A stretch of 54,809 nucleotides of DNA from Candidatus Woesearchaeota archaeon (GTDB taxonomy: Archaea; Nanobdellota; Nanobdellia; Woesearchaeales; GW2011-AR9), in NCBI GenBank assembly GCA_016185625.1, contig JACPND010000018.1, positions 1 to 54,809 of the forward strand. Direction: 5' to 3'. This document shows positions 16,921 to 49,498 of the stretch, in pieces (within the stretch, counting starts at the first letter, position 1; every line of letters begins with the position of its first letter). Made by a program: the position numbers and the translations under genes. The notes under the pieces are model-generated. The model made no database searches, had not been told where the DNA came from, and saw only the letters and a program-made list of their open reading frames with translations.

Positions 16921-16921
16921 G

Positions 16922-17326: not shown

Positions 17327-17760
17327 GATTTCAAAAAAGTATTATTGTGCTCCTTTTGCTTATCATTATTGGGTGTGCCTCCAACATAGAGAAAAATGGT
17401 TCTTTGACACCTGCGACAGTAGTTGAGTTGTATTTCAAAGCCTGGAACCTACAAGACTATGAAACAATGTATAGATTAATTTCTGATGGATTTAAAACAA
17501 TAGAGCCCAGCGCAAAGACAATTGATGATTTTACGACGTATGCGAAGGCGCAGGGAATTACGACAGTGAAAATTGATTCAATCCAAGAGAAGAGTAATGA
17601 TGGTATTACTGCTGGTGTTTATTATAAAGTTAGATTTGTGACTCAAAACAAAGAGGTTCCATTTGAGGGTACATTTACCTTGAAATATAGAGCAAATGAT
17701 GGTGTTCCTGGATGGAAACTAATCCACCCTTATGGAACAAACGTTGATCTGTCTCCTTAA
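17323..17760 (+). CDS. Lipoprotein, NTF2-like fold
   Basis: GTG start overlapping upstream TGA; LLLLIIIGCASN lipobox; TPATVVELYFKAWNLQDYETMYRLIS. Confidence 0.7.
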   Translation: MRFQKSIIVLLLLIIIGCASNIEKNGSLTPATVVELYFKAWNLQDYETMYRLISDGFKTIEPSAKTIDDFTTYAKAQGITTVKIDSIQEKSNDGITAGVYYKVRFVTQNKEVPFEGTFTLKYRANDGVPGWKLIHPYGTNVDLSP

Positions 17761-17772
17761 ACATCTTTAACC

Positions 17773-18219
17773 ATGAAACAAATCATTCAAAAACCATATT
17801 GGTACTGGCTGTTGGGTATTTTTATAATCTATATTGGGTTAAACGTGTATATCAGTGAATTCTACATCACTGCTCAATACCTTTCGACGTATGCAAATCA
17901 GATCCATTGGGGAAAATTGATTCTGGGGATGGTATTTACGGTCGTTATTGGTGCGTTGGTGTCGGTCAATATGGTCAGCGGGTATATTCGCTGGAAAGAA
18001 CGGCAGCAGATTAAAAAGTCTGGTGCGCTGGCCTGTGCCGGCACGATTGGCGGCTTAGCAACCGGCGTGTGCAGTTCCTGTGTAACATCTGTATTTCCAT
18101 TGGTGCTGGGTTTGTTTGGAGTCAGTTTTTCGTGGGTCAGTTTGCCCTTTCAAGGGTTGGAAGTGCAGGTGTTGATGATTGGATTGCTCGCAGGGAGCCT
18201 GTGGTGGATGGGGAAGTGA
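17773..18219 (+). CDS. 4-TM membrane protein with intramembrane CxxC (family member 2)
   Basis: GTIGGLATGVCSSCVTSVFPLVLGLFGVSF. Confidence 0.7.
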   Translation: MKQIIQKPYWYWLLGIFIIYIGLNVYISEFYITAQYLSTYANQIHWGKLILGMVFTVVIGALVSVNMVSGYIRWKERQQIKKSGALACAGTIGGLATGVCSSCVTSVFPLVLGLFGVSFSWVSLPFQGLEVQVLMIGLLAGSLWWMGK

Positions 18220-18306
18220 ATGTACAATTAGACTACGACAATATGAAAGCGGGAATCTCATTACTGGGCGCATTTAAACCAAATTTATTGTAAGAGTACT
18301 TTAACC

Positions 18307-18618
18307 TTATCGCAAAGCATCGAGTTTCCCAACGAGCGCATCATGCACTTCTTTCTTCTTCCCGGTTGATAACGAAAACAGTATCTTTTCAATCATGGCT
18401 TGAGAAATAGTAAAAATATAATTGAGTTTTATAACGCTGTCTTTTATCGCCCCATCTTTCTTCAGTAAAGAAACACCTTTCATATCAGTGTTGCTGGTGA
18501 TTCCGGCAACAATGACATTGCCAAGTTCTTCAAACAGAACCAGAGCAGGCCGTTTCTTTACCTCGAACGTATCAGCAAATTGGATCTCTGCAAGGACAAC
18601 ATCGCCGGATTTAAGCAC
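18307..18618 (-). CDS. MazF/PemK-like toxin
   Basis: MLKSGDVVLAEIQFADTFEVKKRPALVLFEE. Confidence 0.8.
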   Translation of the reverse strand: MLKSGDVVLAEIQFADTFEVKKRPALVLFEELGNVIVAGITSNTDMKGVSLLKKDGAIKDSVIKLNYIFTISQAMIEKILFSLSTGKKKEVHDALVGKLDALR

Positions 18619-18835
18619 GTTCCCAGGCCTCGTCTTCGGCGTTATCCCACAGCTCTTTCATCTTTGCCTGCTGGATTTTGTGCAAAAATTCATCATACTG
18701 ATTGCTTTTCTTCACCGTCTGGAAGATTTTTACCATGTGCCTGATCAACTCATTGTAGGTTTGCCGGGGATATTCCTGCGCCTCTTTGAGGGATTTAACC
18801 AATGATTTGTCTACTTGTATGGTTGTCGTGGTCAT
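18611..18835 (-). CDS. Antitoxin (RHH-like) of the MazF-like module
   Basis: MTTTTIQVDKSLVKSLKEAQEYPRQTYNELIRHMV; overlaps toxin start. Confidence 0.75.
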   Translation of the reverse strand: MTTTTIQVDKSLVKSLKEAQEYPRQTYNELIRHMVKIFQTVKKSNQYDEFLHKIQQAKMKELWDNAEDEAWERA

Positions 18836-18964
18836 TATATATCGCTTATAGATAGCTATAACAGGTTATGTATTTAAACCTTTCTATCTCTACTATTTCT
18901 CCGCCTTGCGCTTCGCTTCGACTCGGAGTGATTGATGATAAAATTCGTTCCACAACCTTTAAAT

Positions 18965-18984
18965 ATATGAACCATTTTTCATAT
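18965..18984. promoter_or_regulatory. Putative ArsR-family operator
   Basis: ATATGAA-ccattt-TTCATAT perfect 7-bp inverted repeat between TATA-like TTTAAATATA and the arsR-type ORF start. Confidence 0.6.
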
Positions 18985-19315
18985 GAAAATGGATTCATGT
19001 AAAACCTTGTCCGCACTTCCGCAAGCCTATAAATTATTCTTTAATACCTTAGCCAATGACAGCCGGTTAAAAATAATCAACATCCTCCGGAATAAATCAA
19101 AAAACGTCAGCGAGATCTGCAAAGCGGCCGGCTTCGAGCAGAGCCTGGTCTCCCACAACCTTAAAATACTGGAATATCATGGCATGGTCTTCATGGAGAA
19201 AAAAGGGAAATTCCGCTATTATACCGTCAACAAAAATACCATTCAGCCTTTGTTAGAACTCATCGATGCACACATGAAAAAATACTGCTGCAAAATTCTG
19301 GAGGGAACACGATGA
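18983..19315 (+). CDS. ArsR/SmtB-family repressor
   Basis: LFFNTLANDSRLKIINILRNKSKNVSEICKAAGFEQSLVSHNLKILEYHGMV; ATG at 18989 also plausible. Confidence 0.88.
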   Translation: MKMDSCKTLSALPQAYKLFFNTLANDSRLKIINILRNKSKNVSEICKAAGFEQSLVSHNLKILEYHGMVFMEKKGKFRYYTVNKNTIQPLLELIDAHMKKYCCKILEGTR

Positions 19316-21759
19316 AAACGGAACGAAAGACCTTGGCCATCCAAGGGATGCATTGCGCCAGCTGCGCCAATAAGATTGAAAAAGCACTCCTGCACTGCCA
19401 GGGCGTGCAGAAAGCAGTCGTGAATTTCGCCACGGAAAAAGCCATGGTGGAATACGATTCCACAAAAACTAAACCAGAGCAGCTGGTGCAGGCAGTAGAA
19501 GGAGCAGGTTATAAAGTCATTCTTCCGCAGAAAAGCAATATCCTCCATCTTAAAGTTATCGGCATGGACAATGATCATTGTGTGAGTACCGTCGCCGGAG
19601 GATTGAAAAACGTAAAAGGGATTCTCAGTAAAGAATTAACCACGACGGAAAAAGCCACGATTACCTATGACCAGACCAAAATTACGCCACTGCAGATCGT
19701 GCAGGCAATCAAAGATGTCGGCTATCAGGCCCTGGAAAAGAGTGCACCTGTAGATACGGAACGGCTCGCACGGGAAAAAGAGATGAGCGGCCTGAAATGG
19801 AGAACGGTCGTTGCGGTCATACTGGCTGTTCCGCTGATAGGTCTGTCGATGCTGGCTCCGTCTCTCGGCATCCCTCTGCCGTCGTGGATGGAGAACAACC
19901 TTGCACTGATTGAATTTCTGCTCGCCACACCCGTGATGATTGCCGGCTCATTATTCTTCTCCCGGGGAATCGGATCAGTAATAAAAGCAAAAACGGCGAC
20001 TATGGACACACTCGTTGCGCTGGGAACAGGAACAGCATATGTTTATTCGCTGTTCATCTCTATTTCTATCTGGACAGGCGAGGCCAAGTACTCGGCGCAC
20101 GACTTATATTATGAAGTAGCGGCATTACTGATTGCGTTTATTCTCCTTGGGAAATATCTGGAAGCGATGGCCAAAGGAAAAACTTCCGAAGCCATCAAGA
20201 AATTGATCGGACTGCAGCCGAAAACTGCCCTTGTCCTGCGCGGCAGGAAGGAGGTCGAAATTCCCATTGACCAAGTGAAAGTCGGTGACGTGGTAATCGT
20301 AAAACCAGGACAAAAAATTCCCATTGATGGAGTTGTGCTGAGCGGCCATTCGACGATTGATGAAAGCATGGTCACAGGCGAGAGTATTCCTATCGAAAAA
20401 CAGAAAGGAAGCAAAGTCATTGGTGCAACCATCAACAAAGCCGGAGCGCTGACGATAAAAGCGACCAGCGTCGGAGCAGATACACTCTTGGCGCAAATCA
20501 TCAAACTGGTCGAAGAAGCACAGGGAAGCAAAGCGCCCATCCAGAAACTTGCCGACCGTGTTTCAGCATATTTTGTGCCCGTGGTCATCGTCCTTGCCTT
20601 AGGCTCATTTTCATTCTGGTATCTCTGGGGATTAGGCACAGCCTTTGCGTTGGAAACGTTGGTGGCCGTATTGATCATCGCCTGCCCCTGCGCTATGGGT
20701 TTAGCCACACCAACGGCAATTATGGTCGGTACGGGGAAGGCTGCCGAGCAGGGCATTCTGATAAAAAGTGCGGAAGCCTTGCAAAAAGCCCAGGAAGTAA
20801 ACACGATTGTGTTTGACAAAACCGGCACGCTGACGAAAGGCAAACCAGAAGTGACCGATCTTATTCCAATGAACAAATTTACTAAGAAAGACCTTTTACT
20901 TTATGCAGCGATTGCGGAAAAACGCAGCGAGCATCCCCTGGCGGAAGCAATCATAAAGAAAGCAGAAGAGAGAAAACTTGCAGTTGCAGCGCCGCAGCGC
21001 TTCTGGGCAATTTCCGGAAAAGGATTAGAAGCTGTCTATAACAAGAAAACCATTCTGCTGGGGAACAGAAGATTGATGGAAGACAAAAGTATCGGGATTA
21101 AAGGTATAGGGCAGGAGATGGAGAAGTTAGAAGATCAGGGGAAAACCGTGATGATCGTGGCGGTGGATAAGAAAGTTGCTGGGTTGATTGCCGTCGCCGA
21201 TACGCTAAAAGAGCATTCCAAAGATGCGGTAGAACTGCTGCAGAAGCTCAAGAAAAGAGTAATTTTAATGACTGGCGATAATCAGCGCACCGGAAATGCG
21301 ATCGCTCGCCAGCTTGGCATCCGTGAAGTGCTGGCGGAAATTCTTCCTGCGGATAAAGCCAAAGAAATCCAGAGACTACAACAGCAAGGACGAAAAGCAG
21401 CTATGGTAGGAGATGGTATTAATGATGCGCCGGCGTTAGCGCAGGCAGACGTAGGGATTGCCATGGGAACTGGTACAGACGTAGCGATTGAATCTGGAGA
21501 TATTGTGCTGATTAAAGGAGACCTGCGGGATGTCGTCACAGCCCTGGACCTAAGCAAATTTACGATGCGAAAAATCAAGCAGAATTTGTTCTGGGCCTTT
21601 TTCTATAATGCCCTGGGAATTCCGGTTGCCGCGGGTATTTTATATCCGGTGACGGGATGGCTGCTCAGCCCGATTATTGCCGGAGCGGCGATGGCCTTTA
21701 GCTCAGTGTCGGTACTGAGCAACTCGCTGTCGATGAAACGGTATAAGCCGAAGTGGTGA
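19312..21759 (+). CDS. copA: Copper-type P1B ATPase with two HMA domains
   Basis: GMHCASCANKIEKAL; IIACPCAMGLATP; DKTGTLTKG; second HMA carries GMDNDHC. Confidence 0.93.
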   Translation: MKTERKTLAIQGMHCASCANKIEKALLHCQGVQKAVVNFATEKAMVEYDSTKTKPEQLVQAVEGAGYKVILPQKSNILHLKVIGMDNDHCVSTVAGGLKNVKGILSKELTTTEKATITYDQTKITPLQIVQAIKDVGYQALEKSAPVDTERLAREKEMSGLKWRTVVAVILAVPLIGLSMLAPSLGIPLPSWMENNLALIEFLLATPVMIAGSLFFSRGIGSVIKAKTATMDTLVALGTGTAYVYSLFISISIWTGEAKYSAHDLYYEVAALLIAFILLGKYLEAMAKGKTSEAIKKLIGLQPKTALVLRGRKEVEIPIDQVKVGDVVIVKPGQKIPIDGVVLSGHSTIDESMVTGESIPIEKQKGSKVIGATINKAGALTIKATSVGADTLLAQIIKLVEEAQGSKAPIQKLADRVSAYFVPVVIVLALGSFSFWYLWGLGTAFALETLVAVLIIACPCAMGLATPTAIMVGTGKAAEQGILIKSAEALQKAQEVNTIVFDKTGTLTKGKPEVTDLIPMNKFTKKDLLLYAAIAEKRSEHPLAEAIIKKAEERKLAVAAPQRFWAISGKGLEAVYNKKTILLGNRRLMEDKSIGIKGIGQEMEKLEDQGKTVMIVAVDKKVAGLIAVADTLKEHSKDAVELLQKLKKRVILMTGDNQRTGNAIARQLGIREVLAEILPADKAKEIQRLQQQGRKAAMVGDGINDAPALAQADVGIAMGTGTDVAIESGDIVLIKGDLRDVVTALDLSKFTMRKIKQNLFWAFFYNALGIPVAAGILYPVTGWLLSPIIAGAAMAFSSVSVLSNSLSMKRYKPKW

Positions 21760-21765
21760 AGCAAG

Positions 21766-22374
21766 ATGATCCTCAACAAGCTTGAATTCATCCTGATGAA
21801 CAACCCCGTACGCCGGTGGATTCAGAACAAGATCGAAGTAAAGGAACTTCACCGTGTATCTTCTCTCCAGAAAAACAAAGTTATCTTAGAAATCGGATGC
21901 GGAAGCGGCAATGGCACCCGTCTAATCAAAAAATATTTTTCTCCTAAGAAGATTTATGCGATAGATTTAGATCCACGAATGATCAATCTGGCCAAGAAAA
22001 ATGTTCGAGATCCCTCAATTACATTTGAAGTTGCGAGTGCGACAAAACTGCCGTACCACAACAGCCAGTTCGACGCTGTTGTTGATTTTGCTATCATCCA
22101 CCACATCCCCAATTGGAAAGATTGTTTAGAGGAACTAAAGCGAGTTTTAAAACCAAATGGGGAATTGATTGTAGAAGATTTATCTATTGAAACCTTCAGT
22201 ACCGCCATCGGGAGAATATATAAGAAAGTGCTGACGCATCCGTATGCCCAGATGTATACTGAAAAGGAATTTATTGAATATTTGCAGAAGATAGGATTTA
22301 CGATTACGCACCATAGATCACATCACTCTTTTCATTTGATTAAATACTTTAATGTGATTGCAAAAAAGAAGTGA
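21766..22374 (+). CDS. Class I SAM-dependent methyltransferase
   Basis: VILEIGCGSGNGTRLIKKYF. Confidence 0.85.
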   Translation: MILNKLEFILMNNPVRRWIQNKIEVKELHRVSSLQKNKVILEIGCGSGNGTRLIKKYFSPKKIYAIDLDPRMINLAKKNVRDPSITFEVASATKLPYHNSQFDAVVDFAIIHHIPNWKDCLEELKRVLKPNGELIVEDLSIETFSTAIGRIYKKVLTHPYAQMYTEKEFIEYLQKIGFTITHHRSHHSFHLIKYFNVIAKKK

Positions 22375-22401
22375 GAAAATGAAATAAAAAGGAGGTGAAC
22401 A

Positions 22402-22707
22402 ATGGCAAAAAAAGAAGCGAATGAAAAATGCGGACAACTGAATGCGAAAGCCTTGGCAGTCGCTTTAGGTGGCTTGTGGGGAGCGTATGTCTTCATCTTG
22501 GGCATAATCTTAACGATTTTCCCGAACGCCAAGTTTTTCTGGGTAAGTAAAGAACTGTTAGGAATGCTGGCGACGCTTTATCCGGGATATGCGGCCACGT
22601 TTACGGGGAGTATTGTTGGTCTGTTGTGGGGTATTTTGTGTGGAGCCGTTGGTGGGCTACTGATAACCTGGCTCCATAACTGGGCATTAGAAAAATATTG
22701 TGAATAA
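22402..22707 (+). CDS. Small membrane protein
   Basis: Hydrophobic helices; preceded by aaggaggtgaac. Confidence 0.65.
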   Translation: MAKKEANEKCGQLNAKALAVALGGLWGAYVFILGIILTIFPNAKFFWVSKELLGMLATLYPGYAATFTGSIVGLLWGILCGAVGGLLITWLHNWALEKYCE

Positions 22708-22715
22708 GAGGTGAA

Positions 22716-22919
22716 ATGATGAAACAAAATTTAGGTAAGCTTGATAGAATTTTTAGGTTTGTGTTGGGAGTGTGGTGGCTCAGCCCATTGGCGCCGCAAT
22801 TCACGGCAGTGTGGCTGAACTGGGTCATCTTTATTGTGGGATGGATAGCCCTCATTGAAAGTATGCTTGGCTGGTGCGGGCTGCATAGTATTTTTCACAT
22901 CAACAATAAAAATCAGTAA
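22716..22919 (+). CDS. DUF2892-like membrane protein
   Basis: NLGKLDRIFRFVLGVWWLSPLAPQ...GWIALIESMLGWCGLHSIF. Confidence 0.75.
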   Translation: MMKQNLGKLDRIFRFVLGVWWLSPLAPQFTAVWLNWVIFIVGWIALIESMLGWCGLHSIFHINNKNQ

Positions 22920-22963
22920 AGATTAAACAAAAATAAAATTGGACTGAGAAGGGGAGGTAAACC

Positions 22964-23134
22964 ATGTTTGGACTATTTGCAAAGAAAGATCCTGTCTGCG
23001 GGATGAAACGGGAGAAAGGGAAAGGTATTGAAAAGGACGGAAAATGGTTCTGTTCTGAGGCGTGTGTGAAGAAGTTTGAGACTGGCAGCGCGAAAGCCGG
23101 CATGAAAAGTGGTTCCTGCTGCGGAGGGCATTGA
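22964..23134 (+). CDS. YHS-domain metal-binding protein, 56 aa
   Basis: MFGLFAKKDPVCGMKREKGKGIEKDGKWFCSEACVKKFETGSAKAGMKSGSCCGGH*; not in the ORF track. Confidence 0.8.
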   Translation: MFGLFAKKDPVCGMKREKGKGIEKDGKWFCSEACVKKFETGSAKAGMKSGSCCGGH

Positions 23135-23736
23135 TGCCTATTCCGGCGAAGGCACAGCAAAACATTTCTTTCTTTGATAGATGGGCGAAAAGTTATGACT
23201 TTCCCCTATTTCAATTTTGGATGAAAAAATTCCATCGGCCAGTCCTACAAGAGATTGATTATTCCAAAAAACAAAGTATTCTGGATTTAAGCTGTGGGAC
23301 GGGAGAACTGCTAAAAGAAATACAATCGCGAGATCACTTGGAGAAATTAAAATTGTCGGGAATAGACATTTCGCAAAAAATGTTGGCGGCGGCGAAAGAT
23401 AAACTGTCAAAGAAGGCCAATCTTATTCTTGGCGACGTTCATGATCTTCCGTTCAAAACCAATTCCTTTGAAGACGTGATCAGTACGGAAGCATTTCACC
23501 ATTATTACGACCAATCTGGCGCATTACTAGAAATGAAACGGGTGGTAAAGAGAGGAGGAAAAGTCATAGTTGTTGACGTGAACTTTTTTCTTCGTTTCAT
23601 TCATTTTTTATTTGAAACGTTTGAGACAGGATGTGTAAAAGTCAATAATAAAACAGAAATGAAAAGATTGTTTGACAATCCGCCGATCGCGTGCGTGTAT
23701 AGTGTAAGGCGGACTTTGTTCCAGCCGTGGATGTAA
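23134..23736 (+). CDS. SAM-dependent methyltransferase (3' end probably altered)
   Basis: SILDLSCGTGELLKEI; ATG overlaps upstream TGA. Confidence 0.8.
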   Translation: MPIPAKAQQNISFFDRWAKSYDFPLFQFWMKKFHRPVLQEIDYSKKQSILDLSCGTGELLKEIQSRDHLEKLKLSGIDISQKMLAAAKDKLSKKANLILGDVHDLPFKTNSFEDVISTEAFHHYYDQSGALLEMKRVVKRGGKVIVVDVNFFLRFIHFLFETFETGCVKVNNKTEMKRLFDNPPIACVYSVRRTLFQPWM

Positions 23737-23951
23737 ATATCCGGATGATGGCCTTCCTGCTCGGCGATTTTTCCGGCTTTATTCACAAAATCAAGGGCTT
23801 TTTTGAAATTCTTGAATGTGAAATCTTTTTCTAATTTGTTCTCTGCCACTCTCCAGCCTTTGATCTGCTGCAGGAGAAGCGTATATTCTTTGAGGGTTAA
23901 AGGCTGTATGCCGCCTTCGCAGGGAAGGCATTTCTTTTGGGTGAGGGCCAT
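23601..23951 (-). CDS. Pterin-4a-carbinolamine dehydratase with replaced C-terminus
   Basis: EQEGHHPDIYIHGWNKVRLTLYTHAIGGLSNN then non-family tail. Confidence 0.8.
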   Translation of the reverse strand: MALTQKKCLPCEGGIQPLTLKEYTLLLQQIKGWRVAENKLEKDFTFKNFKKALDFVNKAGKIAEQEGHHPDIYIHGWNKVRLTLYTHAIGGLSNNLFISVLLLTFTHPVSNVSNKK

Positions 23952-23984
23952 GATGAAAGAAAAAAGAAAAGAACTATTAAAGCT

Positions 23985-24434
23985 TTACTGCACGATCAGC
24001 TTCCCGCGGGTGTGGAAATAATCTCCACAGGAACTGCAGTAATAGAGGAACGTGCCGCGTTTGTCAGCAACGAATTCGATGTCGGTGGTTTTTCCTGACG
24101 TTAATTGTTCGTGTATTTTGTATTCGGCAATGTTGAATGTGTCGTCGACGTCTTTGCTCCTGATGCGGAGTACGACTTTATCGCCTTTGCGGACGGTAAT
24201 CCGATTCGGATCGAAGGAGTTTTGGGCTGCTTCCATCTCCAGTTCTGTTCCGCTGGGAGCGCTGACAGCAGCAGTTATTTCCTCTTTCGGCTCTGGAACG
24301 GCGGCTGCCGCTTCGTTCTGTACGTTCTGTAATGGCGCTGATGCTGGTTCTGGTGTTGAGGATGTTAGTGTTTTAGAGCTACACCCCAGTATTAATACCA
24401 GTAAAGCAATACCTATCAATAATTTTAGTCTCAT
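23985..24434 (-). CDS. Cupredoxin-like lipoprotein
   Basis: Lipobox LVLILGCSS; FDPNRITVRKGDKVVLRI...GTFLYYCSSCGDYFHTRGKLIVQ. Confidence 0.85.
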   Translation of the reverse strand: MRLKLLIGIALLVLILGCSSKTLTSSTPEPASAPLQNVQNEAAAAVPEPKEEITAAVSAPSGTELEMEAAQNSFDPNRITVRKGDKVVLRIRSKDVDDTFNIAEYKIHEQLTSGKTTDIEFVADKRGTFLYYCSSCGDYFHTRGKLIVQ

Positions 24435-25685: not shown

Positions 25686-26180
25686 TTAGATTCGGTTTAT
25701 TTCTTTCGTTGAAATCTCCCCTCTAAATCGCTCTTCAAACAAACTGGCTACTCTCTTCCGGAGCAGATAGGTATCGGCATTCTGGACGTATGCCATCCAT
25801 CCCTCCATAAAATCGTAGACATTGTCATAGCTAATCTTTCCTCTGTCGTAATATTGGCATATCCCGTGAAATTTCCGATAAAAATTTCGAACATTCTTCA
25901 GCTTTATCAGCTTATGGTGCGGAAAAATCTTCAGCCCTAAAAATTCCGTTCCTCGTGGCAATGGCACTATTCGGGACTTTGTTGGATGAAGCTCAAGAGT
26001 GGGATTTTTCTGCAGAAAACTACTTATTACTTGAAATATTTTTTCCAATTCCTTCCTTGAGTTATGCAATATAACAAAGTCATCTATAGCGAAGATAATA
26101 TTTTACTTTGAGTGTATGCTTCACAAAATGGTCTAATCCATTCAGACACACGTTAGCGAAGAACTGAGATGTCAAATTAC
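25686..26180 (-). pseudogene. Reverse transcriptase fragment, DGR-type (N-terminus missing, frameshift at the catalytic box)
   Basis: GNTIPLGNLTSQFFANVCLNGLDHFVKHTLKVKYYLRY / frameshift / DDFVILHNSRKELEKIF...LELHPTKSRIVPLPRGTEFLGLKIFPHHK. Confidence 0.8.
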
Positions 26181-27241
26181 CCAGGGGTATGGTATTTCCT
26201 CAATTCTTCCCGTTGCATAATTTGGTTATACAATTCTAAAGCTTCTCTTCCGGTAATAATCTTATGTGCTGTTGCATTTATTCCTGGATTTGTTCCAGCT
26301 TTATAGAGTGCCAGAGTGTCAATGCGTCCACCATCACTTCCCACCAACTCGGTAGCCCCGTTTCCTTCATTCTTGCTAATCACTATTGTCCCCACTTTTC
26401 CACCATCACTTCCCGCCCAATAGGCAACCCAGTCTCCTTTATTCTCGCTAATCACTATTGTCCCCACTTTTCCAGCATAACTTCCCGCCCCGTGGGCAGC
26501 CCAGTCTCCTTTATTCTCGCTAATCACTATTGTCCCAACTTGTCCATTATCACTTCCCGCCCTGTGGGCAGCATTGGCTCCTTTATTCCCGCTAATCACT
26601 ATTGTCCCCACTTGTCCACCATCTCTTCCCGCCCACTCAGCAGCCCCGTCTCCTTTATTCTTGCTAATCACTATTGTCCCCACTTGTCCTTTATAACTTC
26701 CCGCCCACTCGGCAGCCCAGTCTCCTTTATTCTCGCTAATCACTATTGTCCCCACTTGTCCTTTATAACTTCCCATAAAAGCGCAGGTATCTGTTCCAAC
26801 AACATTTTTCACCCGGACAGTATCTGCTCTCTCTGCATAATAGAACAAATACGAAAAGGAATTTTCATAAAGATCAATCTCAATATTCGCGGTTCTTCTT
26901 TTCTTATGCGCCCTTTCAGTCAGAAGATGTAATAAAACACCCGTATACAAACCTAAAGCTTGTGCTTCATTTTTATCATAGTTATTATTCGCTTTGGCTA
27001 AAACCAATGACTGCAAATCCGCAGCGGTGAATGGTTCTATCTCCCGCAAGGAGCGGTAAAGAGGAACGTAAATCCCTGATTTAATCTCCTTCCACGATTT
27101 ATCAGCAAACTTCCCCGCAAATTCTGTTACTGCTTCTTTTTCCCGCTGCAGCAATTGCTCTAGTGTAGTTGCTTTTCTTTCCTGCACGTCCCGTTCTTTC
27201 TGTATTCCTTTAAGGTCGTCAAAGAGGGGCATGGTGTTCAC
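26177..27241 (-). CDS. Repeat (solenoid-like) protein with six to seven 24-aa repeats
   Basis: GSYKGQVGTIVISENKGDWAAEWA-type repeats. Confidence 0.7.
   Translation of the reverse strand: MNTMPLFDDLKGIQKERDVQERKATTLEQLLQREKEAVTEFAGKFADKSWKEIKSGIYVPLYRSLREIEPFTAADLQSLVLAKANNNYDKNEAQALGLYTGVLLHLLTERAHKKRRTANIEIDLYENSFSYLFYYAERADTVRVKNVVGTDTCAFMGSYKGQVGTIVISENKGDWAAEWAGSYKGQVGTIVISKNKGDGAAEWAGRDGGQVGTIVISGNKGANAAHRAGSDNGQVGTIVISENKGDWAAHGAGSYAGKVGTIVISENKGDWVAYWAGSDGGKVGTIVISKNEGNGATELVGSDGGRIDTLALYKAGTNPGINATAHKIITGREALELYNQIMQREELRKYHTPG
26329..26775 (-). repeat. 72-bp tandem coding repeats
   Basis: Invariant GGACAAGTGGGGACAATAGTGATTAGC core, variation confined to a few codons. Confidence 0.9.
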
Positions 27242-36849: not shown

Positions 36850-38661
36850 ATGATTTTAGGCAGACTCATCGGCAAAGCCAGCACCACCCAATTCCAATTT
36901 CAAGTAATGTCAGCGCAAACTAAAAAATTCCAGTTTATCCAGGTGCATCATCCAGACTACGGCTTTGTGCTGGGACAGGTAATGGAACTGCTGCGCACGG
37001 AAAATGACCTGACCGCTCAGTGTAATGTGATTGGATTTAAAGATGTTGACCATCGGATTAAAGGCATCCGCACGCCCTTTGCCATCGGATCAGAAGTATT
37101 GGAAGCAGAAGATTCATTTATTCAGTCGGTCATCGAACTGGACGGAGACGTCGGAGCTGGAGGTGGCGGCTTTTTGGGGCGATTGGAAGGGAAAACCATT
37201 CCTGTCAATATTGATCTGCAGAAACTGCTGACCAAACACTTGTGTGTACTGGCGAAATCGGGCGCCGGAAAAAGTTATGCCGTAGGCGTTCTTATTGAAG
37301 AAATTGTGGAAAAAGGCGTGCCTGTCCTGATCATCGATCCGCATGGAGAATATGCAGCGTTAAAATTTCCCACGGAAGAAAAAAAGGAGATTTTACACGA
37401 ATGGGGAATTGAAGCACAAGGCTATGGCGCAAAAGTGCAGGAATATGGGAATCCTCACACCAAAGAAGATGTCCGGCCATTAAAATTGAGCGAAAAGATG
37501 AACAGCTCTGAGTTGATGAAAATTCTCCCCATCCAATTGAGCAACGCACAGGAAGCGATGTTATTTTCCGTCATTAAAGACATGGACGAGATTAATTTTG
37601 ACGGGATTATCCTGGGATTGCAGCAGTTGAATGCCGGCGGCAAGTGGAACATTATCGACACGCTGAGCTATCTGCGCAACCTGAAATTATTTTCACCATC
37701 ACCCACACCGTTCTCGGAGTTAATCAGGCCGGGCAAAATAACCATCATCAACCTGAGAGGCATTACGCCGGAAGTGCAGGAAGTGGTCGTCTATCGGCTG
37801 CTGCAGGATTTATTCCTGGAACGCAAGCAGGAAAAAATCCCGCCGTTTTTCTGCATTCTGGAAGAAGCGCATAATTTTGTGCCGGAGAAAGGCTTTGGCC
37901 GGGCGAAAAGCGCAGACGTCATCCGCCTGATTTCATCGGAAGGGAGGAAGTTTGGTCTCGGACTCTGTGTGGTATCCCAGCGCCCCGCTTTAGTGCAAAA
38001 GACAGTCTTGGCGCAATGCAGCACCCAGTTAATCATGAAAGTTACCAATCCCAATGATTTGCGGGCAATTGTCGGATCGATTGAAGGCATTACTGCGGAA
38101 ACTGAACAGGAAATCCAGAACTTGCCAATTGGCTCGGCGTTATTGTGCGGCATGGTCGATCGCCCTTTAGTGGTGCAGATCCGGCCGCGGAGAAGCCAGC
38201 ATGGAGGACACGCCATAGATATTCTGGGTTCTGTGGAAGAGTATGGCAAAGATATAGTTGAAGAAGCGCAGAAATTTGAAGAGCAGGGCTTGCTGCCGTT
38301 AGTCAAGCCTCATCTGGAGAAGAAAGATTTGCTGTTGATGGCCAATGGGCCAGTGACAATCACGACGTATTTGATTCCGGCCTGTCTGGTGCGCTGTGAA
38401 ATCAAAGGGATGGAGATTGCTGTCTTGGTTGATAAGATTAAAGGCAGGATCATTCTTGATCCAGAGAAAGATTTGAGGAAGGAAATTCATCAGCTGGACG
38501 AGAGTTGCGGCTTTTTCCGGAAGATAGCCTACGAAAATATTGAATACGACGTCAAATTAGACGAGAAAATTCCGGAGGAAGAGCTGAAAAAAATGGTGGA
38601 GAAATATTGCATGGTGTTGGAGGTACGGAATTGTTTTATTGTGTATTATAAGGTTGCTTAG
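36850..38661 (+). CDS. HerA-like/DUF87 P-loop ATPase
   Basis: LCVLAKSGAGKSYAVGVLIEEI; FFCILEEAHNFVPEKG. Confidence 0.9.
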   Translation: MILGRLIGKASTTQFQFQVMSAQTKKFQFIQVHHPDYGFVLGQVMELLRTENDLTAQCNVIGFKDVDHRIKGIRTPFAIGSEVLEAEDSFIQSVIELDGDVGAGGGGFLGRLEGKTIPVNIDLQKLLTKHLCVLAKSGAGKSYAVGVLIEEIVEKGVPVLIIDPHGEYAALKFPTEEKKEILHEWGIEAQGYGAKVQEYGNPHTKEDVRPLKLSEKMNSSELMKILPIQLSNAQEAMLFSVIKDMDEINFDGIILGLQQLNAGGKWNIIDTLSYLRNLKLFSPSPTPFSELIRPGKITIINLRGITPEVQEVVVYRLLQDLFLERKQEKIPPFFCILEEAHNFVPEKGFGRAKSADVIRLISSEGRKFGLGLCVVSQRPALVQKTVLAQCSTQLIMKVTNPNDLRAIVGSIEGITAETEQEIQNLPIGSALLCGMVDRPLVVQIRPRRSQHGGHAIDILGSVEEYGKDIVEEAQKFEEQGLLPLVKPHLEKKDLLLMANGPVTITTYLIPACLVRCEIKGMEIAVLVDKIKGRIILDPEKDLRKEIHQLDESCGFFRKIAYENIEYDVKLDEKIPEEELKKMVEKYCMVLEVRNCFIVYYKVA

Positions 38662-39640
38662 ACTTTTTAAAAATAACGTATCCTAACAACAGTAGGAATA
38701 AAAAAAGGACAATCGTCCCCACCACATTCGCATACTCCCATCCCAGAAGCGCACGCTGCAGCGAATAAAAATACGGCTTGGTGCCCAGTACATCCCAATT
38801 ATTGATCACTCCCGTCCCTTCAAAGAAAATGACGATAAAGCCCACTATCAATAACAGCAGTCCTGAGATGAGATTAGTGGAATGGATCTCCCGCTGCTTG
38901 CCCCAGAGCGTAAACGAGAGCATCCTGCCTTTCATCCATGATTTTTCAGATAGATTGAATCGATCATAGAAGAATGACAAAAGGAATAACGGAACAAAAT
39001 TACCCAACGAATAAAAAAACAATAACAGTGCGGCCTGCCACATATTTCCCAGTATGGCGCCGATGCCCAGAATGCCTGCCAAGATCGGGCCCAGACACGC
39101 TGTCCAGCCCAGTGCAAAACTCAACCCAAAGAGAAACGTGCCCGGAAGGTCGTTGCTGAATTTCTGGCTGAAAGTAAACCACGAACCAAAGCCTTTCCCC
39201 AGCAGCGTCAATGCACCTAAAAACAAAAGGAGTATTCCGCCTATCGTCACCAGCCAGCCTTTCTGCAGTACAACTAAGGTCTGCTCACCAAGAAAACCGG
39301 CGGCAAGGCCCAGCGAGACAAACACCAGCGAGAATCCCGCAAAAAAGACCAGCGTCATCAGCGTCAGATTCTTTTTCTCTTTGAACGTATACGAAAAATA
39401 CGCCGGCAGAAAGGGCAGAATACAGGGCGATAAAATGCCTAACATCCCGGCAACAAAGGCAATCAGAAAACTGATCTTCAGCGCAAAATCAGCGGTAGCT
39501 TGCTGGTTATAGTCGATAATTTTCTGCAATCCAATGGGAAGAGCGCTGGCAGCTGAAACACCAACGGCCAATAGCAAAACAGAAAGAAGAAAAAATAACA
39601 AAACTGTTTTTTTTGAGTGGAGGGGGTGATTTTCTTTCAT
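38636..39640 (-). CDS. CcdA/DsbD-type transmembrane thiol transporter
   Basis: GILSPCILPFLPAYFSYTF; GWTACLGPILAGILGIG. Confidence 0.88.
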   Translation of the reverse strand: MKENHPLHSKKTVLLFFLLSVLLLAVGVSAASALPIGLQKIIDYNQQATADFALKISFLIAFVAGMLGILSPCILPFLPAYFSYTFKEKKNLTLMTLVFFAGFSLVFVSLGLAAGFLGEQTLVVLQKGWLVTIGGILLLFLGALTLLGKGFGSWFTFSQKFSNDLPGTFLFGLSFALGWTACLGPILAGILGIGAILGNMWQAALLLFFYSLGNFVPLFLLSFFYDRFNLSEKSWMKGRMLSFTLWGKQREIHSTNLISGLLLLIVGFIVIFFEGTGVINNWDVLGTKPYFYSLQRALLGWEYANVVGTIVLFLFLLLLGYVIFKKSKQPYNTQ

Positions 39641-40749
39641 GTCAGGCTAGCAGCATCCTTGCTGGGTGTGATGACTTTCTGCTGAACTAAATCCCGGTAC
39701 GTCTGGCCGAATAATTCCACTTTGCGGAAGACGTACGCTCCATCACTTTCAATCGTGCCAACGTCTTTCCAGATGCGTTCCATCAAGGGATAGATGTTAA
39801 GGTCTCCGGTGAGGAGAATGGTGGGGATTTGGGTAATTTTGTATTTCTCGATCAGTTTCTTCCCTTCGGAGCTGGCAGCATCATATTCCTGTTCTGAGGC
39901 TAGTGTTAATCCTAATCCTTCCAGGATCGGTTTGTTGGTGGTTTTAGCGTCATAGCAATTAGTGCAGCTCTTATCGGTAATGGTTGTCAGCGTCACCAGT
40001 CCCTGCACAGCATTTTTCTCGATATTGTAATACGGCGGATTGAGATTGCGCATCACGTAATAGCCGTCTTTTTCTATGGTCCCTATATTCTTCCAGGCAG
40101 AAGAGACCGTCAAATACAATCCGGCATCAGGACTAAAGATCAGTGTAGGAACTGCCGTGATGTTGTATTTTTCTGCCAATTTCTTCCCTTCGGCACTGCT
40201 GATGGGAAGGGTGTTGTACTCTTTCACTTTCAGATTCTGCCGCAGTTTTTGCACTAGAGGATTCAGGTCATAGCATTTGTCGCAACCTTCTTTGAAAAGC
40301 TGGATCAAAGCAACATACCCTTTTACTTGTCCGCTGGCGACATCAACAAACGGCGGTTCAGGAGCAGTAAGGATGAGGGCGCCATTCTTCTCCACGCTGG
40401 GAAGATCGGTCAGTTTTATTCTTGCTTTCTCTACGTCTCCTTTCACAATAATCGCCGGAACACGGTCAATATTATATTTTTCAAGTAAGGCTTTCGCCGT
40501 TTTCGAAGAATAATCAAGAGTTACTTTGTCAGTGACCTGGAGATTTGCTCCTTCAATCAAGGACGCAACTTTGGTGATGTCAAAACAGTCCTGGCAGGAA
40601 TCCGCCGTAATCAGCGCCAGCTCTACTTTAGGCAGGACTGCTGGCTGCGCTTTCTCGACAAGGGTTTTCCCGATTTGATACAATTGAACGGTATTAAACA
40701 GCCCGATCACAATAAGAACAAATCCAAGAAAAAAAAGAAGTCTTTTCAT
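39637..40749 (-). CDS. Membrane-anchored protein with three tandem thioredoxin-like domains
   Basis: DSCQDCFD, EGCDKCYD, KSCTNCYD; each followed by a cis-Pro motif (RVPAII, AVPTLI, QIPTIL). Confidence 0.88.
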   Translation of the reverse strand: MKRLLFFLGFVLIVIGLFNTVQLYQIGKTLVEKAQPAVLPKVELALITADSCQDCFDITKVASLIEGANLQVTDKVTLDYSSKTAKALLEKYNIDRVPAIIVKGDVEKARIKLTDLPSVEKNGALILTAPEPPFVDVASGQVKGYVALIQLFKEGCDKCYDLNPLVQKLRQNLKVKEYNTLPISSAEGKKLAEKYNITAVPTLIFSPDAGLYLTVSSAWKNIGTIEKDGYYVMRNLNPPYYNIEKNAVQGLVTLTTITDKSCTNCYDAKTTNKPILEGLGLTLASEQEYDAASSEGKKLIEKYKITQIPTILLTGDLNIYPLMERIWKDVGTIESDGAYVFRKVELFGQTYRDLVQQKVITPSKDAASLT

Positions 40750-40971
40750 CTAACAGCCACCCACCATCGAGGGAAGTTCTTTCACGCTGCTGGGAACAGA
40801 CTGTATTTGCTTTCCGCCAGATGATGCGACGGGCGCAGCGCTGCTCGTTGATTTCACGCTTAATGTTCCGCTGCTGATCTTATCTTTTAACCCATAGAGC
40901 TGCACTGCTTGCACGACAGAAACAAGCACGAGAACAGCCAATATCAGCCCTACTATTAATTTTTGGTTCAT
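40750..40971 (-). CDS. Small secreted/anchored protein with C-terminal LPSMVGGC
   Basis: MNQKLIVGLILAVLVLVSVVQA...VKELPSMVGGC*. Confidence 0.75.
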   Translation of the reverse strand: MNQKLIVGLILAVLVLVSVVQAVQLYGLKDKISSGTLSVKSTSSAAPVASSGGKQIQSVPSSVKELPSMVGGC

Positions 40972-40994
40972 GTTTTTCCTCCTTGTTCTTTTAT

Positions 40995-41086
40995 AGAAGG
41001 GTTTGAATAACCCTTCTTAATAGTTCAAACCCTTCTAAGTAGGACTTTGAATTTGATGTGGAATAGGGTTTATTCAAAGTCCTCTA
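40995..41086. repeat. Double-hairpin dispersed repeat, copy 3
   Basis: AGAAGGGTTTGAA/TTCAAACCCTTCT and AGGACTTTGAAT/ATTCAAAGTCCT. Confidence 0.88.
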
Positions 41087-41114
41087 TAGATGACGACTAA
41101 TCGTTCTAACCATC

Positions 41115-41972
41115 CTAACAACCACCCACCATTCCGGGCAGTTTTAATTTGGATGTATCTCCGCCGGCAAGGGAAACGCCTAATTCAATCATGTTCTTGG
41201 GGAAAAAAAGCGTTTTCCAGCGCATCACTTCACGCAGGATTTCGCCGTCACTATAATCAGTATACGCTGTCAAGTACAAAGCGACCGAAAGCAACGCCGG
41301 ATTATGCTGGCAACCGCAGCGGGAATTTCCGTTCTTGTCTGCTCCAATGGGGCCAATACCGCAGCAAAATTCGCAGGAAATGCCCACGGGATTACTGGCT
41401 AGATTTATAAATCGCTGCCAGGCTTCAGGATTCTTTTGTTCCACTTCAGTCTTTAAGCCGCGGTACATGGACGCAAGTTTGCTTAATGAGCCCACGGGAT
41501 CGTCGAAGCTGACGCCGAGTGCCTGACCGTAATCAGGGGTTCCACTGGGGAACATGGCGGCCATGGCATCATCTGCTGTTTTAAAATTCTCTACCGGGAA
41601 AACGGCGGCAACGGTATGGCCTGTAGATTTAATGGCAGCTAAATCAAGAGTAGATAATTCTTTGTTGCTGACTAATGCACCGGTTGAACTTCCGCCAAGC
41701 AGTGTGGACACGCTGCTGATTTGCACTTGGTTAAAAATAAGCACAATAATAGCCAAAGCCAGCAGCCCATAATGCCAAGATGAGAAGAACTTTTCTTCAA
41801 GAGGGTGATGCTCTACCGGACGATGCGATGTCTTTTCAGGATGATGCTCTTCCGGAGGTTGTTCCGTCAGCCCTAATGGGTGTTTGAGAGTGTGTTCAGT
41901 TTGGTGTTTGGGAGGATGGTGTTCGGCTCGTTTTTCTTCCATGATTTTACCTCTGGTTATTTTGATGGTCAA
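41115..41972 (-). CDS. Membrane protein with Cys-rich extracytoplasmic domain and C-terminal LPGMVGGC
   Basis: ISCEFCCGIGPIGADKNGNSRCGCQHNPALLSVALYLTAYTDYSDGEILREVMRWKTLFFP...KLKLPGMVGGC*. Confidence 0.8.
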   Translation of the reverse strand: MTIKITRGKIMEEKRAEHHPPKHQTEHTLKHPLGLTEQPPEEHHPEKTSHRPVEHHPLEEKFFSSWHYGLLALAIIVLIFNQVQISSVSTLLGGSSTGALVSNKELSTLDLAAIKSTGHTVAAVFPVENFKTADDAMAAMFPSGTPDYGQALGVSFDDPVGSLSKLASMYRGLKTEVEQKNPEAWQRFINLASNPVGISCEFCCGIGPIGADKNGNSRCGCQHNPALLSVALYLTAYTDYSDGEILREVMRWKTLFFPKNMIELGVSLAGGDTSKLKLPGMVGGC

Positions 41973-42055
41973 AGCCTATACCCCTTTTTAAATCTTCAGA
42001 AACAATAGTGAAAAAATAGGGAAAATTAATAAATCCCCGGCTGTCCGGGCAAGGT

Positions 42056-43621
42056 ATGAAGCTGGAACGCGGCCTGATGGCAGGATTATTCTTAGCCCTG
42101 CTGCTAGTGGGGCTCGTGATCTTGGTAAGCTATCTTTCGTTTCAGAAAATCGAGCAGTTCAACCAAGAACAATTGATGGAAAACCAGCTGGTAAAAACAA
42201 AGTATGCGGCAACGCAGATAGAAGCACATCTGACCGGATTGCAGAAGCTGCTCGAACAAGGCGAGGACTGTGATACGAATGGCATCTTAAAAGCTGATGC
42301 GTTAGGAACAATTGTCTGTGCCTCGCCGGAGTTGGCTGATTATGTGGGATTAAACATTAAAGACAAGGAGTACTTCCAGACCGCCACAGAGAATGAAGTG
42401 AGCATTGTGGCTGTAACCAAACAGGGAAGCAATCCACAGATCATCGTGACCGTGCCCTTGGCAAAATACGGCCAATTTTCAGGCGTGCGGATGGCTATTG
42501 TGGAATTGCAACAGTTGCACTGGTTATATTTACAGTCGATTGTCAGCAATCCGCCAAAAAGCATGTACGCCATCTTCGATGGGAACGACGTAATCTATGC
42601 CAGTGAAAAGATTCCCGTAGTGAGCAGCAGCGAGCCCGCAAGCATGCAGCATCTGGATCCGCTGGGTGAGACCATGGTGACCTCGTCAGATCTTATTTTT
42701 GGCCATGAGCATTGGCGGCTGGCAGTGCTGACACCATTGCGTAATGTTACCGGAGAGCTGGAGAAACTTCGCCGGCAGCTGCTCGGGGCCTTGATGGTTA
42801 TCGTGGGAACCCTGCTCTCGGCGTCTATTGCGGGTGCATCATTGTATCGTTCACGGCAAAAGCTGAAGCAAAAGTTGGATACGCTGACGTTAGAGAAATT
42901 GGGCGCCGGCGAGCTGGAAGGGAATAAGTATACGGATGCGGATATTGATCTGGAACCGGGGAAAATGTATCTGATCAAAGACGGCGAAGAAAAAGCCCGG
43001 GCGTTGTTTCTCTCGGCATTGAACAAGAATTATGCGGGTTTAGGCGCGGTACGCGATGATCCGCGAACACTACGAAAGAAATATAATGTGCAGAAAACGC
43101 CGTTGGTGTGGATTACGCCCAATAAAGTAGCGGGTGTTGCCTGCGAATCAAATATAGAACCATTGTTTGAACTGATGAAAGAATTTCTGCGGCAGAATGA
43201 CGGTGTTGTTCTTCTGGAGGGGATTGAATATCTCAGTTTGCAGCACCCTTCACCGTTGCTTCTTGCCCATCTCCAACAGCTGAAGGACGCTGCGACAGCC
43301 AGGCAGAGTATTGTGCTTCTGGCAGTAAAGCCGGAAGTGTGCCCAGCACCAGTGTTGGCGGCAGTGCAGGCAATGGCGTCGGATGTATATGGTGAGTCGG
43401 TGCTGACGGCGCAAGAAAAAGAGATCCTGCGGACAATTAATGAAAAAAACAGTATGAGCACACTGGTATCATTCACCGACATTACGAAGCAGCTGGAGAT
43501 TACCAAACCGACCACGCGGGCGAAGATCTCACGGCTCCACGGACTTGGCCTGGTGGAGGTGCAGACGGTGGGCAGATTCAAAGCGTTGAAGATCACTTCG
43601 AAAGGAAGGAAGTTGATTTAA
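42056..43621 (+). CDS. Membrane-bound sensor-regulator: extracytoplasmic CACHE-like domain, DUF835-like domain, C-terminal wHTH
   Basis: Two TM helices bracketing ~220 aa; ALFLSALNKNYAGLGAVRDDPRTLRKKYNVQKTPLVWIT...; EKEILRTINEKNSMSTLVSFTDITKQLEITKPTTRAKISRLHGLGLVEVQ. Confidence 0.75.
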   Translation: MKLERGLMAGLFLALLLVGLVILVSYLSFQKIEQFNQEQLMENQLVKTKYAATQIEAHLTGLQKLLEQGEDCDTNGILKADALGTIVCASPELADYVGLNIKDKEYFQTATENEVSIVAVTKQGSNPQIIVTVPLAKYGQFSGVRMAIVELQQLHWLYLQSIVSNPPKSMYAIFDGNDVIYASEKIPVVSSSEPASMQHLDPLGETMVTSSDLIFGHEHWRLAVLTPLRNVTGELEKLRRQLLGALMVIVGTLLSASIAGASLYRSRQKLKQKLDTLTLEKLGAGELEGNKYTDADIDLEPGKMYLIKDGEEKARALFLSALNKNYAGLGAVRDDPRTLRKKYNVQKTPLVWITPNKVAGVACESNIEPLFELMKEFLRQNDGVVLLEGIEYLSLQHPSPLLLAHLQQLKDAATARQSIVLLAVKPEVCPAPVLAAVQAMASDVYGESVLTAQEKEILRTINEKNSMSTLVSFTDITKQLEITKPTTRAKISRLHGLGLVEVQTVGRFKALKITSKGRKLI

Positions 43622-43930: not shown

Positions 43931-44386
43931 ATGAATAACGCAATCTTCAAAATCGTGTTAGGAACCGTCATCTTTTTATTTTTAATATCCTGCACCAAAC
44001 CCACAACTGAAGAACTGCTGAAGATGGATCTGCGCGGGCAGGGCGGGGTAGCAATGCATATTCATCCGCAATTGGAGATTGAAATTCTGGGTGAGAAGTA
44101 CGAGATCCCTGAAAATATTGGAATTACGCCAGCAGGATTGAGAGTTATCCATATCCATGGTGAGCCAGGGGTATTGCACGTAGAATCGCCGGTAGTGCAC
44201 CAGTTCTTCCTAAAAGATTTCTTTACTGTCTGGGGCAGGAAGTTTGATTCACAGTGTATTTTTGATAATTGTGTTGATGAAAAGCACAAATTGAAAGTGT
44301 ATGTGAATGGAGTAGAGGATTTCCATTATGGAGATATTCCGCTGGAAGATAATGAAAAGATTAAGATTGTGTATCAAGAAAAATAA
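43931..44386 (+). CDS. His-rich lipoprotein
   Basis: FLISCTKP lipobox; MHIHPQLEIEI...RVIHIHGEPGVLHVESPVVHQFFLKDFFTVWG. Confidence 0.7.
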   Translation: MNNAIFKIVLGTVIFLFLISCTKPTTEELLKMDLRGQGGVAMHIHPQLEIEILGEKYEIPENIGITPAGLRVIHIHGEPGVLHVESPVVHQFFLKDFFTVWGRKFDSQCIFDNCVDEKHKLKVYVNGVEDFHYGDIPLEDNEKIKIVYQEK

Positions 44387-44399
44387 TTACCCGGCTTTG

Positions 44400-44462
44400 T
44401 CAAACGTTGCAAGCGCCCTACCACGGGTCATAGACCGGGATGGAAAGACGTATTCTAAGTTT
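44400..44462 (+). pseudogene. Fragment of the 5' end of the thyX-like gene (partial duplication)
   Basis: Matches 47771-47834 with two substitutions. Confidence 0.85.
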
Positions 44463-47740: not shown

Positions 47741-49498
47741 TTGGCTAAAGTGATGGGAGATAATTCATTATCAAACGTTGCGAGCGCCCTACCACGGGTC
47801 ATAGACCGGAATGGAAAGACGTATTCTAAGTTGGAATGTAAAGCGCTGGAGCGTTTTGTCACCAGCGCAACAGATCGGATCTATGCTTGTCGTGCGGATC
47901 TGCCCCCGGAAGTTTTTGGCGCCTTCGGCTCTTTTTTCAGCCGCAATCCGAAAGACTTAAGAAATCATATCTTAGATGCCATACGGGGCAGAATTCCTGG
48001 TCATGAGGGGGATGTTGCGCTTGGAGAAAAGAATGTAACCAAACTAGCTTCTGGCGAGTTTACAAGTCCGGCAGAAGCTCTCAAAAGCGGAGTATCGAAA
48101 GCTCAGGCCTTCTTTAGAGAATGGTACGGGAAGTACAGCCATAAAAGCATTGCCAATGTGGTCTGGATCCCCTTCGTAGGAACAAACGTCAGTCAATTAT
48201 TTGCCCGGCAATTGGCGTATGATCAATTAGCTTTCTTCATCGAGCAATCAACACGTTTTGTAAAATTTGATGTTGATAATTTGTATCTCGATCAAAGAGT
48301 CATGGACAGCCAGCATCGGGATTTATTTGTCGGGACACTCCGGCGCGCAGCTGAGGTTTATGAACAATTTACGGAACGGGCTGCGGATCATTATGGAAGA
48401 CAGTTGCCTTTTGACGCTTGGTTGCAACAGCAAAATGATACTATTAAAGCAGTTCAGGAGAAGCCGCAGAGAACAAAATATCGCCGGGAATTAAAAGCGA
48501 AAGCCTTTGATGTAGCCCGATTGTTATTGCCGCAGGCAGTACGGACCAACATTGCGTGGATTTTGGATGCACGTTCAACAGAGTTTGATATCGCAGCTTG
48601 GAAAGGGCATCCGTTAGCGGAAATAAAAGAGAGTGCATTACTCATCGAGAAAGCGGGAGGAGAGATTGCCCCCTCATTATTGAAATATACGGAGAAGAAC
48701 TCTTATTACGAAGATCAATATGGGGGTCTGGGTAGTGGTCTGGGCAGCGCTCTTCAGGTTGAGCTTCCATCAGCGCCGATGATGAAAGGTGTGGATGTCA
48801 TTTCCTATGATGCTAATGCCTTTCAGAAAGTGGTGGCCATGCTGCTGATGAGATCAAACCGCTCTGCTGATTTTAATCGCTTCTTGGAATATGCTCGAAG
48901 CATGACTTTCGATGAGAAAATTGGTGTGCTGCGAAGAGTAACAGAAAAACGTGGCCCGTTTGATGAATGGGTGGATATAGAAGAAGCGTTTGATTGTGTA
49001 AAGATAACAGCTCAAATTAGGACAGATATTGGTGCCGTTCGTGACTTGCGGCGGCATCAGAAGTGGGACAGGAATGAAGGGCGGTATACTTTAGATAATG
49101 GTTTTTATCTTCCGGAAATCGTTCATGAGATAGGAACAGAAGCTGCTACTCTTTATACTGAAGTTATGGGCAGGGCGTATGATACTGAAAGAACACTCCG
49201 AAAAGAATTTTCTCAGGAAGCGCAATATGTGGTTCCGATGGCGGCCTTTCATCCGATTATCATGAGTGGCGGATTAGATCAGCTTCAATATCTCGTCGCC
49301 ACCAGAACTGTGCCTCAAGGGCATTTCTCCTATAGAGAAGACGCTTATAATTTAGCCGAAGCTGTCTGCCGAGTTCATCCTTGGCTTTTGGGGCTTCAGG
49401 AATATCCTCAGGGAAAATCTGTTGAGGAAGTTGTCCGCGATGCTCCGCTGAAGAGTGTTTTGAGGCCGTATATTGGTGATACAGGATGGCATGCGTAA
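47741..49498 (+). CDS. Double-length ThyX-like (FAD-dependent thymidylate synthase family) protein
   Basis: YSHKSIANVVWIPFVGTNVSQLFARQLAYDQLAFFIEQSTRFVKF; second half contains DLRRHQKWDRNEGRY; GTTTAAATAAAT upstream; ATG at 47753 also possible. Confidence 0.85.
   Translation: MAKVMGDNSLSNVASALPRVIDRNGKTYSKLECKALERFVTSATDRIYACRADLPPEVFGAFGSFFSRNPKDLRNHILDAIRGRIPGHEGDVALGEKNVTKLASGEFTSPAEALKSGVSKAQAFFREWYGKYSHKSIANVVWIPFVGTNVSQLFARQLAYDQLAFFIEQSTRFVKFDVDNLYLDQRVMDSQHRDLFVGTLRRAAEVYEQFTERAADHYGRQLPFDAWLQQQNDTIKAVQEKPQRTKYRRELKAKAFDVARLLLPQAVRTNIAWILDARSTEFDIAAWKGHPLAEIKESALLIEKAGGEIAPSLLKYTEKNSYYEDQYGGLGSGLGSALQVELPSAPMMKGVDVISYDANAFQKVVAMLLMRSNRSADFNRFLEYARSMTFDEKIGVLRRVTEKRGPFDEWVDIEEAFDCVKITAQIRTDIGAVRDLRRHQKWDRNEGRYTLDNGFYLPEIVHEIGTEAATLYTEVMGRAYDTERTLRKEFSQEAQYVVPMAAFHPIIMSGGLDQLQYLVATRTVPQGHFSYREDAYNLAEAVCRVHPWLLGLQEYPQGKSVEEVVRDAPLKSVLRPYIGDTGWHA

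Follow-up and report, generated by a model that had tools for sequence, protein, structure and literature searches.

In cytochrome c maturation, CcmH, a short helical cysteine protein, stands downstream of CcdA. In the bacterial TlpA-Sco1 system, which is accompanied by CcdA-fed thiol reductases, a membrane-anchored thioredoxin fold keeps the cysteines of the copper chaperone and of CuA reduced, with TlpA reducing Sco and CuA prior to metallation (PMC9145763). Among proteins that bind copper themselves, the DUF411 protein CopG is thioredoxin-like and holds a Cu4 cluster by means of CxCC (PMC7558416). Terminal thiols are found in the Cys-Cys-COOH (seleno)protein SaoC (NF040734), in a presumed metal-resistance setting (PMC13188914), and CuA NosZ-like proteins have been reported in 21 of 33 DPANN metagenome-assembled genomes (MAGs) from oxygen-deficient zones (PMC10936187). 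Here we analyze a 54,809-nucleotide stretch of DNA (the window) from a Candidatus Woesearchaeota archaeon (contig JACPND010000018.1), in which four minus-strand genes encode the membrane thiol transporter CcdA (38636-39640), a triple thioredoxin that we call TRX3 (39637-40749) and two membrane-anchored proteins, P3 (40750-40971) and P4 (41115-41942), whose sequences end exactly at the stop codon in LPSMVGGC and LPGMVGGC, respectively. An earlier note on this DNA had put these four genes forward as a new redox/metal operon with a shared C-terminal tail; the genes and tails are present where it placed them, our results support such an operon, and the tail proves to be a genuine functional element. 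That P4 and P3 constitute a conserved functional tag pair we regard as nearly certain.

Comparison with the described systems places the novelty of the locus in the tagged P4/P3 core; CcdA and the thioredoxin are ordinary components. As in TlpA-Sco1, thioredoxin and CcdA components occur beside CuA-pattern cupredoxins, with TRX3 fused to one of them, and by analogy the whole system may work like TlpA-Sco; unlike TlpA-Sco1, it features two proteins without relation to solved structures, three thioredoxin domains, a tailed pair and a dispensable relay. Where CopG uses CxCC for copper, P4 has CxxCC...CxCxH together with a transmembrane (TM) anchor and a C-terminal thiol tail, and it does not match PF04214. 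Neither P4 nor P3 matches any NCBIfam model and, unlike SaoC, they form an archaeal DPANN pair ending in GGC instead of CC or CU. An assignment of P4 to CcmH or to PCYCGC proteins, suggested by its cysteine motif and the helix that follows, is unsupported by Pfam and fold searches, with no Pfam match among 98 P4 sequences and no fold match. The study of DPANN NosZ-like proteins deals with the same kind of archaea, and two of the loci analyzed here (L053 and L085) carry ETNP3/ETNP7 MAG names of the style used there, but it reports the cuproprotein and not the P4/P3 pair or the tail (PMC10936187). The literature on MVGGC, judged from titles and abstracts, contains no paper on a protein tail of this kind, and none was found joining Woesearchaeota, CcdA and thioredoxin. 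The P4/P3 core and tag share no defining feature with any known family tested, and the pair is previously undescribed.

The 1.16 Mb genome to which the window belongs contains exactly two matches to MVGGC followed by a stop codon, and these are the tails of P3 (codons at 40753-40767) and P4 (41118-41132). Among 191 relatives, 52 contain the exact pattern, mostly as pairs 0.2-0.9 kb apart, as opposed to 5 genomes for a reversed-pattern control, and among loci retrieved by the tail pattern only, 29 of 30 encode P4. Across 371 genomes of the phylum, a tail match is present in 101 of the 102 that are P4-positive and in about 20 of the 269 that are P4-negative, the latter rate being close to that of the reversed control. 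The comparison with chance that the earlier note had suggested therefore yields a frequency far above control, and this result, together with the co-occurrence with P4, rules out a chance origin of the tail. Matches to KVGGC elsewhere are attributed to chance; no open reading frame (ORF) of at least 40 codons terminates at them. All four valine, all four glycine and both cysteine codons are used in the tail, and this free synonymous variation implies that it is the peptide, and not the DNA, that is conserved. A DNA repeat or gene conversion is likewise ruled out, since the codons show free variation and are not the same in the P4 and P3 genes. The terminal cysteine is invariant save for rare variants. 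At locus L171 a P4 ending in MVGAC sits beside a P3 ending in MVGGC, and at L147 the P4 tail is IVGEC and the surrounding 1.4 kb contain no P3.

P4 (275 aa) is encoded from an ATG start codon, although an alternative upstream TTG would put the start at position 41972, and it comprises an N-terminal TM anchor, a linker and an all-helical domain ahead of the tail. In an alignment of 98 homologues, C190, C193, C194, C209, C211 and H213 (41304-41375, minus strand) are invariant and E238 and W242 nearly so; the cluster probably binds Cu(I) or another soft metal. The AlphaFold model has a mean predicted local distance difference test (pLDDT) score of 84.9, and within the domain, which extends from residue 110 onward, most values are 93-99. 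Searches with P4 and its 98 homologues returned no Pfam family, only scattered sub-threshold matches, and no relative in the PDB by sequence, while the best Foldseek match of the AF2 model to PDB folds had E = 3.0, against a criterion of E <= 0.001. P3, in turn, is a 73-aa membrane-anchored, low-complexity arm, modeled as one helix followed by a disordered linker, with conservation confined to the anchor and the tail. The same tail has a predicted pLDDT of about 83 on P4 versus about 54 on isolated P3, a contrast between models that suggests packing of the tail on the P4 domain. In several loci (L072, L078, L156, L159 and others) P4 is N-terminally fused to a small membrane domain with CPxC within or close to a TM helix; this domain is also encoded in P4 loci by separate genes (c6mem). 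Four P3 proteins (L034, L035, L164 and L166) bear a Met/His motif (NYEMHGTIPAR, MMARMHPEQ) ahead of MVGGC that is suggestive of copper binding.

A single scan of 84,980 prokaryote species yielded 231 relatives of P4. The 80 listed carry Woesearchaeota, Pacearchaeota, Aenigmatarchaeota, Altiarchaeota, Diapherotrites, Micrarchaeota, Nanoarchaeota, Nanoanaerosalina or unspecific archaeal labels, apart from three labeled as bacterial, which are probably mis-binned contigs; among the matches listed, P4 is thus essentially confined to DPANN. We analyzed 125 P4 loci, which comprise three subtypes; in 116 of them P4 is followed downstream, at a distance of no more than 1.5 kb, by a tailed P3. Type A (83 loci, including the window) follows the order P4-P3-TRX3-CcdA and bears the tail on 81 P4 proteins. 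Type B (28 loci) is arranged as regulator-P4-P3-(second P3)-DUF411/CopG-membrane proteins, with the tail on 25 P4 proteins and a tailed P3 in all 28 loci. In type C (14 loci, usually with TRX3) only 4 P4 proteins are tailed, yet a tailed P3 is found in all 14, including the ten with a tail-less P4, and this identifies P3 as the constant bearer of the tail. Within the window, TRX3 and CcdA overlap through ATGA (39637/39640) and P3 and TRX3 abut exactly (40749/40750), so that the description of the genes as tightly packed applies to three of the four; it does not extend to P4, because 143 bp (40972-41114) containing two strong hairpins on the minus strand (z = -4.1, with 0 of 200 shuffles as stable) separate it from P3. 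These hairpins may allow the two tailed genes to be expressed or processed differently.

Further insight into the tail comes from three separate lineages in which both P4 and P3 end in QVGGC. These are L062, labeled Micrarchaeum; L074/L199, of genus g193, where both proteins of the congeners G283 and G344 end in MVGGC; and L194, of genus g205, whose congener L196 likewise has MVGGC in both. The P4 and P3 proteins of the Q-tailed pairs are 61-72% identical to those of their M-tailed congeners, and the codons of the two Q tails differ within each genome, which argues against gene conversion. The joint switches therefore place both tails under a shared constraint, and they provide the strongest evidence for one site recognizing both. 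Glutamine is not known to stand in for methionine as a Cu(I) ligand in the usual way, and for this reason the tail methionine is more likely a recognition residue and the terminal cysteine the chemical one; the switches argue against methionine as an essential metal ligand and for a role in peptide recognition or docking. The residue preceding the tail is identical in P4 and P3 in 29 cases versus 18.7 expected (the maximum of 2000 shuffles being 30), a weak signal from which relatedness was not removed and which we do not use.

The joint switches also contradict the notion that P4 arose as a duplicate of P3 with an inserted domain and retains an inherited tail of little present function. The two proteins do share the anchor motif, (N)QxQ(I/L) at the TM-helix end, and the tail, but their linkers have diverged beyond recognition, the tail has remained fixed despite free synonymous change, and type C has lost it from P4 and not from P3, all of which renders such a relic highly improbable. 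The same switches, as well as the retention of the tail on dissimilar proteins, are what a single reader predicts and would suit a docking or attachment tag read by an unlinked enzyme or scaffold, which would use the terminal cysteine to modify or anchor the two proteins (by lipidation, thioester or disulfide tethering) while the redox genes merely keep that cysteine reduced; exchange of methionine and glutamine, moreover, suits shape recognition more than metal ligation. However, P4 and P3 are already anchored by TM helices, some P4 proteins lack the tail, only this pair bears it in the genomes checked, which would be odd for a general sorting code, and the loci contain no partner enzyme as constant as P4 and P3. 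We consider an attachment tag unlikely.

The relay components can be assigned with ease to known families. TRX3 consists of a TM anchor and three thioredoxin-like domains, with PF13192 matched in 3 stretches and CxxC motifs at residues 52-55, 156-159 and 262-265, all three of which are kept in 58 of 61 homologues. Its sequence relatives in the PDB are glutaredoxin-like protein disulfide oxidoreductases (PDOs), and its score of 46 bits against the TIGR02187 PDO_seleno_TRX equivalog falls below the cut-off of 185. CcdA is a genuine member of the CcdA/DsbD-TM family PF02683 (51 bits, cut-off 27.1) with C73 and C182 present in its sequence; W-x-x-C-x-G-P is found in 44 of 49 homologues, and a weak match to TsoB over the DsbD part lies far under the cut-off. 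The co-localization of tail and relay genes that the earlier note had anticipated is evident in type A, where TRX3 is near 67 and CcdA near 51 of the 83 loci, many others being cut by contig ends. At the threshold used, however, TRX3 is missing genome-wide from 15 of 44 P4-positive genomes, which rules it out as a universal reader of the tail. CcdA is also without a match in 6 of these 15, and five of the six (G165, G188, G198, G214 and G267) keep the tail pair, two of them (G165 and G214) being single-contig genomes; in the sixth, G122, P4 is diverged and ends in IVGEC. Persistence of the pair without TRX3 and detectable CcdA rules out an obligatory CcdA relay and makes the relay an accessory module. 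The proposal that the CcdA/thioredoxin relay services the tail consequently stands for type A, in an accessory capacity, and fails as a general rule, given that in type B TRX3 is near only 3 and CcdA near 7 of the 28 loci.

These observations bear directly on a metal-free thiol relay, in which the tails would carry electrons from CcdA and TRX3 to extracytoplasmic disulfides and P4 would be a new oxidoreductase. TRX3, with its three conserved CxxC motifs, and CcdA adjoin most type-A loci, the terminal cysteine is near-invariant and its tether is flexible, as this explanation would have it. The pair persists nonetheless where neither protein is detectable, as in the two single-contig genomes, and the genes that recur with it are copper genes, not merely generic disulfide genes. 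Such a relay is therefore improbable, if the first alternative to be kept in view.

Genes for DUF411/CopG, BlaI/CopY-type regulators, heavy-metal ATPases, Met-rich proteins or cupredoxins lie within 9 kb of 85 of the 125 P4 genes, with DUF411 beside the pair in 39 loci, and 290 kb of control DNA, taken from the same genome group, yielded none of the neighbor families. About 20 loci encode cupredoxins with the CuA pattern CxxxCxxxH, and fusions of TRX3 to a cupredoxin occur in L041 (CuA pattern), in L091 and probably in L096. The genome of the window has four cupredoxin-like genes, two of them inside the window. A copper role for the P4/P3 system appears reasonably probable. In principle the Cys-rich site could instead be occupied by a different soft metal or a metalloid (Ag, Hg, As), and some loci do encode MerT-like proteins (a weak PF02411 match) and ArsR-type regulators, but CopG, the CuA-pattern cupredoxins and the TRX3-cupredoxin fusions indicate copper specifically and leave this substitution quite doubtful. 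The window also contains a copper island (15025-24434) with a heavy-metal P-type ATPase bearing two HMA domains (19312-21759), cupredoxins at 16489-16920 and 23985-24434 (the second of which matches COX2 below threshold), a Met-rich membrane protein (15742-16479) and small Cys-pair membrane proteins (16808-17326 and 17773-18219).

On the evidence as a whole, we propose a DPANN system for extracytoplasmic thiol/copper handling with P4 and P3 at its core; to this mechanism, in its full form, we assign a probability of roughly 0.45. Each protein would be tethered through one N-terminal TM helix, with the compact helical domain of P4 providing, in its five invariant cysteines and histidine, a site for Cu(I) or another soft metal, and P3 acting as a flexible arm with a conserved MVGGC end. 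The MVGGC peptides would be mobile terminal-thiol arms read at a single site common to both. Most simply this site would be the P4 domain, which would bind its own tail in cis and that of P3 in trans, so that metal or thiol/disulfide could move between arm and cluster and onward to cupredoxin-type proteins. Where present, TRX3 and CcdA would pass electrons across the membrane and maintain the tail and cluster cysteines in reduced form, a part that in other genomes would fall to DUF411/CopG together with further membrane proteins. The broader formulation, in which MVGGC is a C-terminal thiol code read by P4 in cis and trans within a DPANN-specific surface copper/thiol machine with interchangeable electron-supply modules, we advance more tentatively still. 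The elements that we infer are the extracytoplasmic location, copper, docking on P4 and the direction of electron flow, and several points weigh against them. The pLDDT contrast between the two tails is indirect evidence from models, and a search for P4 residues co-changing with the Q tails returned nothing convincing and hence no support for P4 as the receptor. We infer copper from gene neighbors; the neighbor models were built from the P4 loci themselves, which makes the copper-gene enrichment partly circular. No copper marker lies within 9 kb in 40 of the 125 loci, some of them on short contigs, and in the window itself the copper genes are at a distance of 14-26 kb.

Several other features of the window were recorded. 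The divergent plus-strand gene at 42056-43621, likely a sensor or regulator, encodes a DUF835 protein with a weak dCache match and a winged-helix-like C-terminus, and it recurs beside P4 elsewhere. A small extracytoplasmic protein of an HxHP... family that also recurs in P4 loci is encoded at 43931-44386 (plus strand). It is followed by the first copy (44397-44461) of a 65-nt direct repeat, 95% identical to a second copy 3.4 kb away (47768-47832) at the start of a 585-aa ORF at 47741. Positions 26254-26829 hold a 72-bp repeat array of 24-residue VGTIVISxNKGD... units within an ORF (26177-27241); by eye, the adjoining ORF (25686-26069) resembles the final part of a reverse transcriptase, and there was no Pfam match.

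The P4/P3 system is a widespread, undescribed DPANN pair whose fold is unmatched and whose terminal-cysteine tag is strictly retained, changing jointly in both partners. The tail is short enough for peptide synthesis, so that the key claim can be easily tested. The pair offers a concrete, testable way into the question of how archaea that depend on hosts and have tiny genomes manage copper and extracytoplasmic thiols, and it is a candidate for the system that matures the puzzling CuA/NosZ-like cupredoxins of DPANN.

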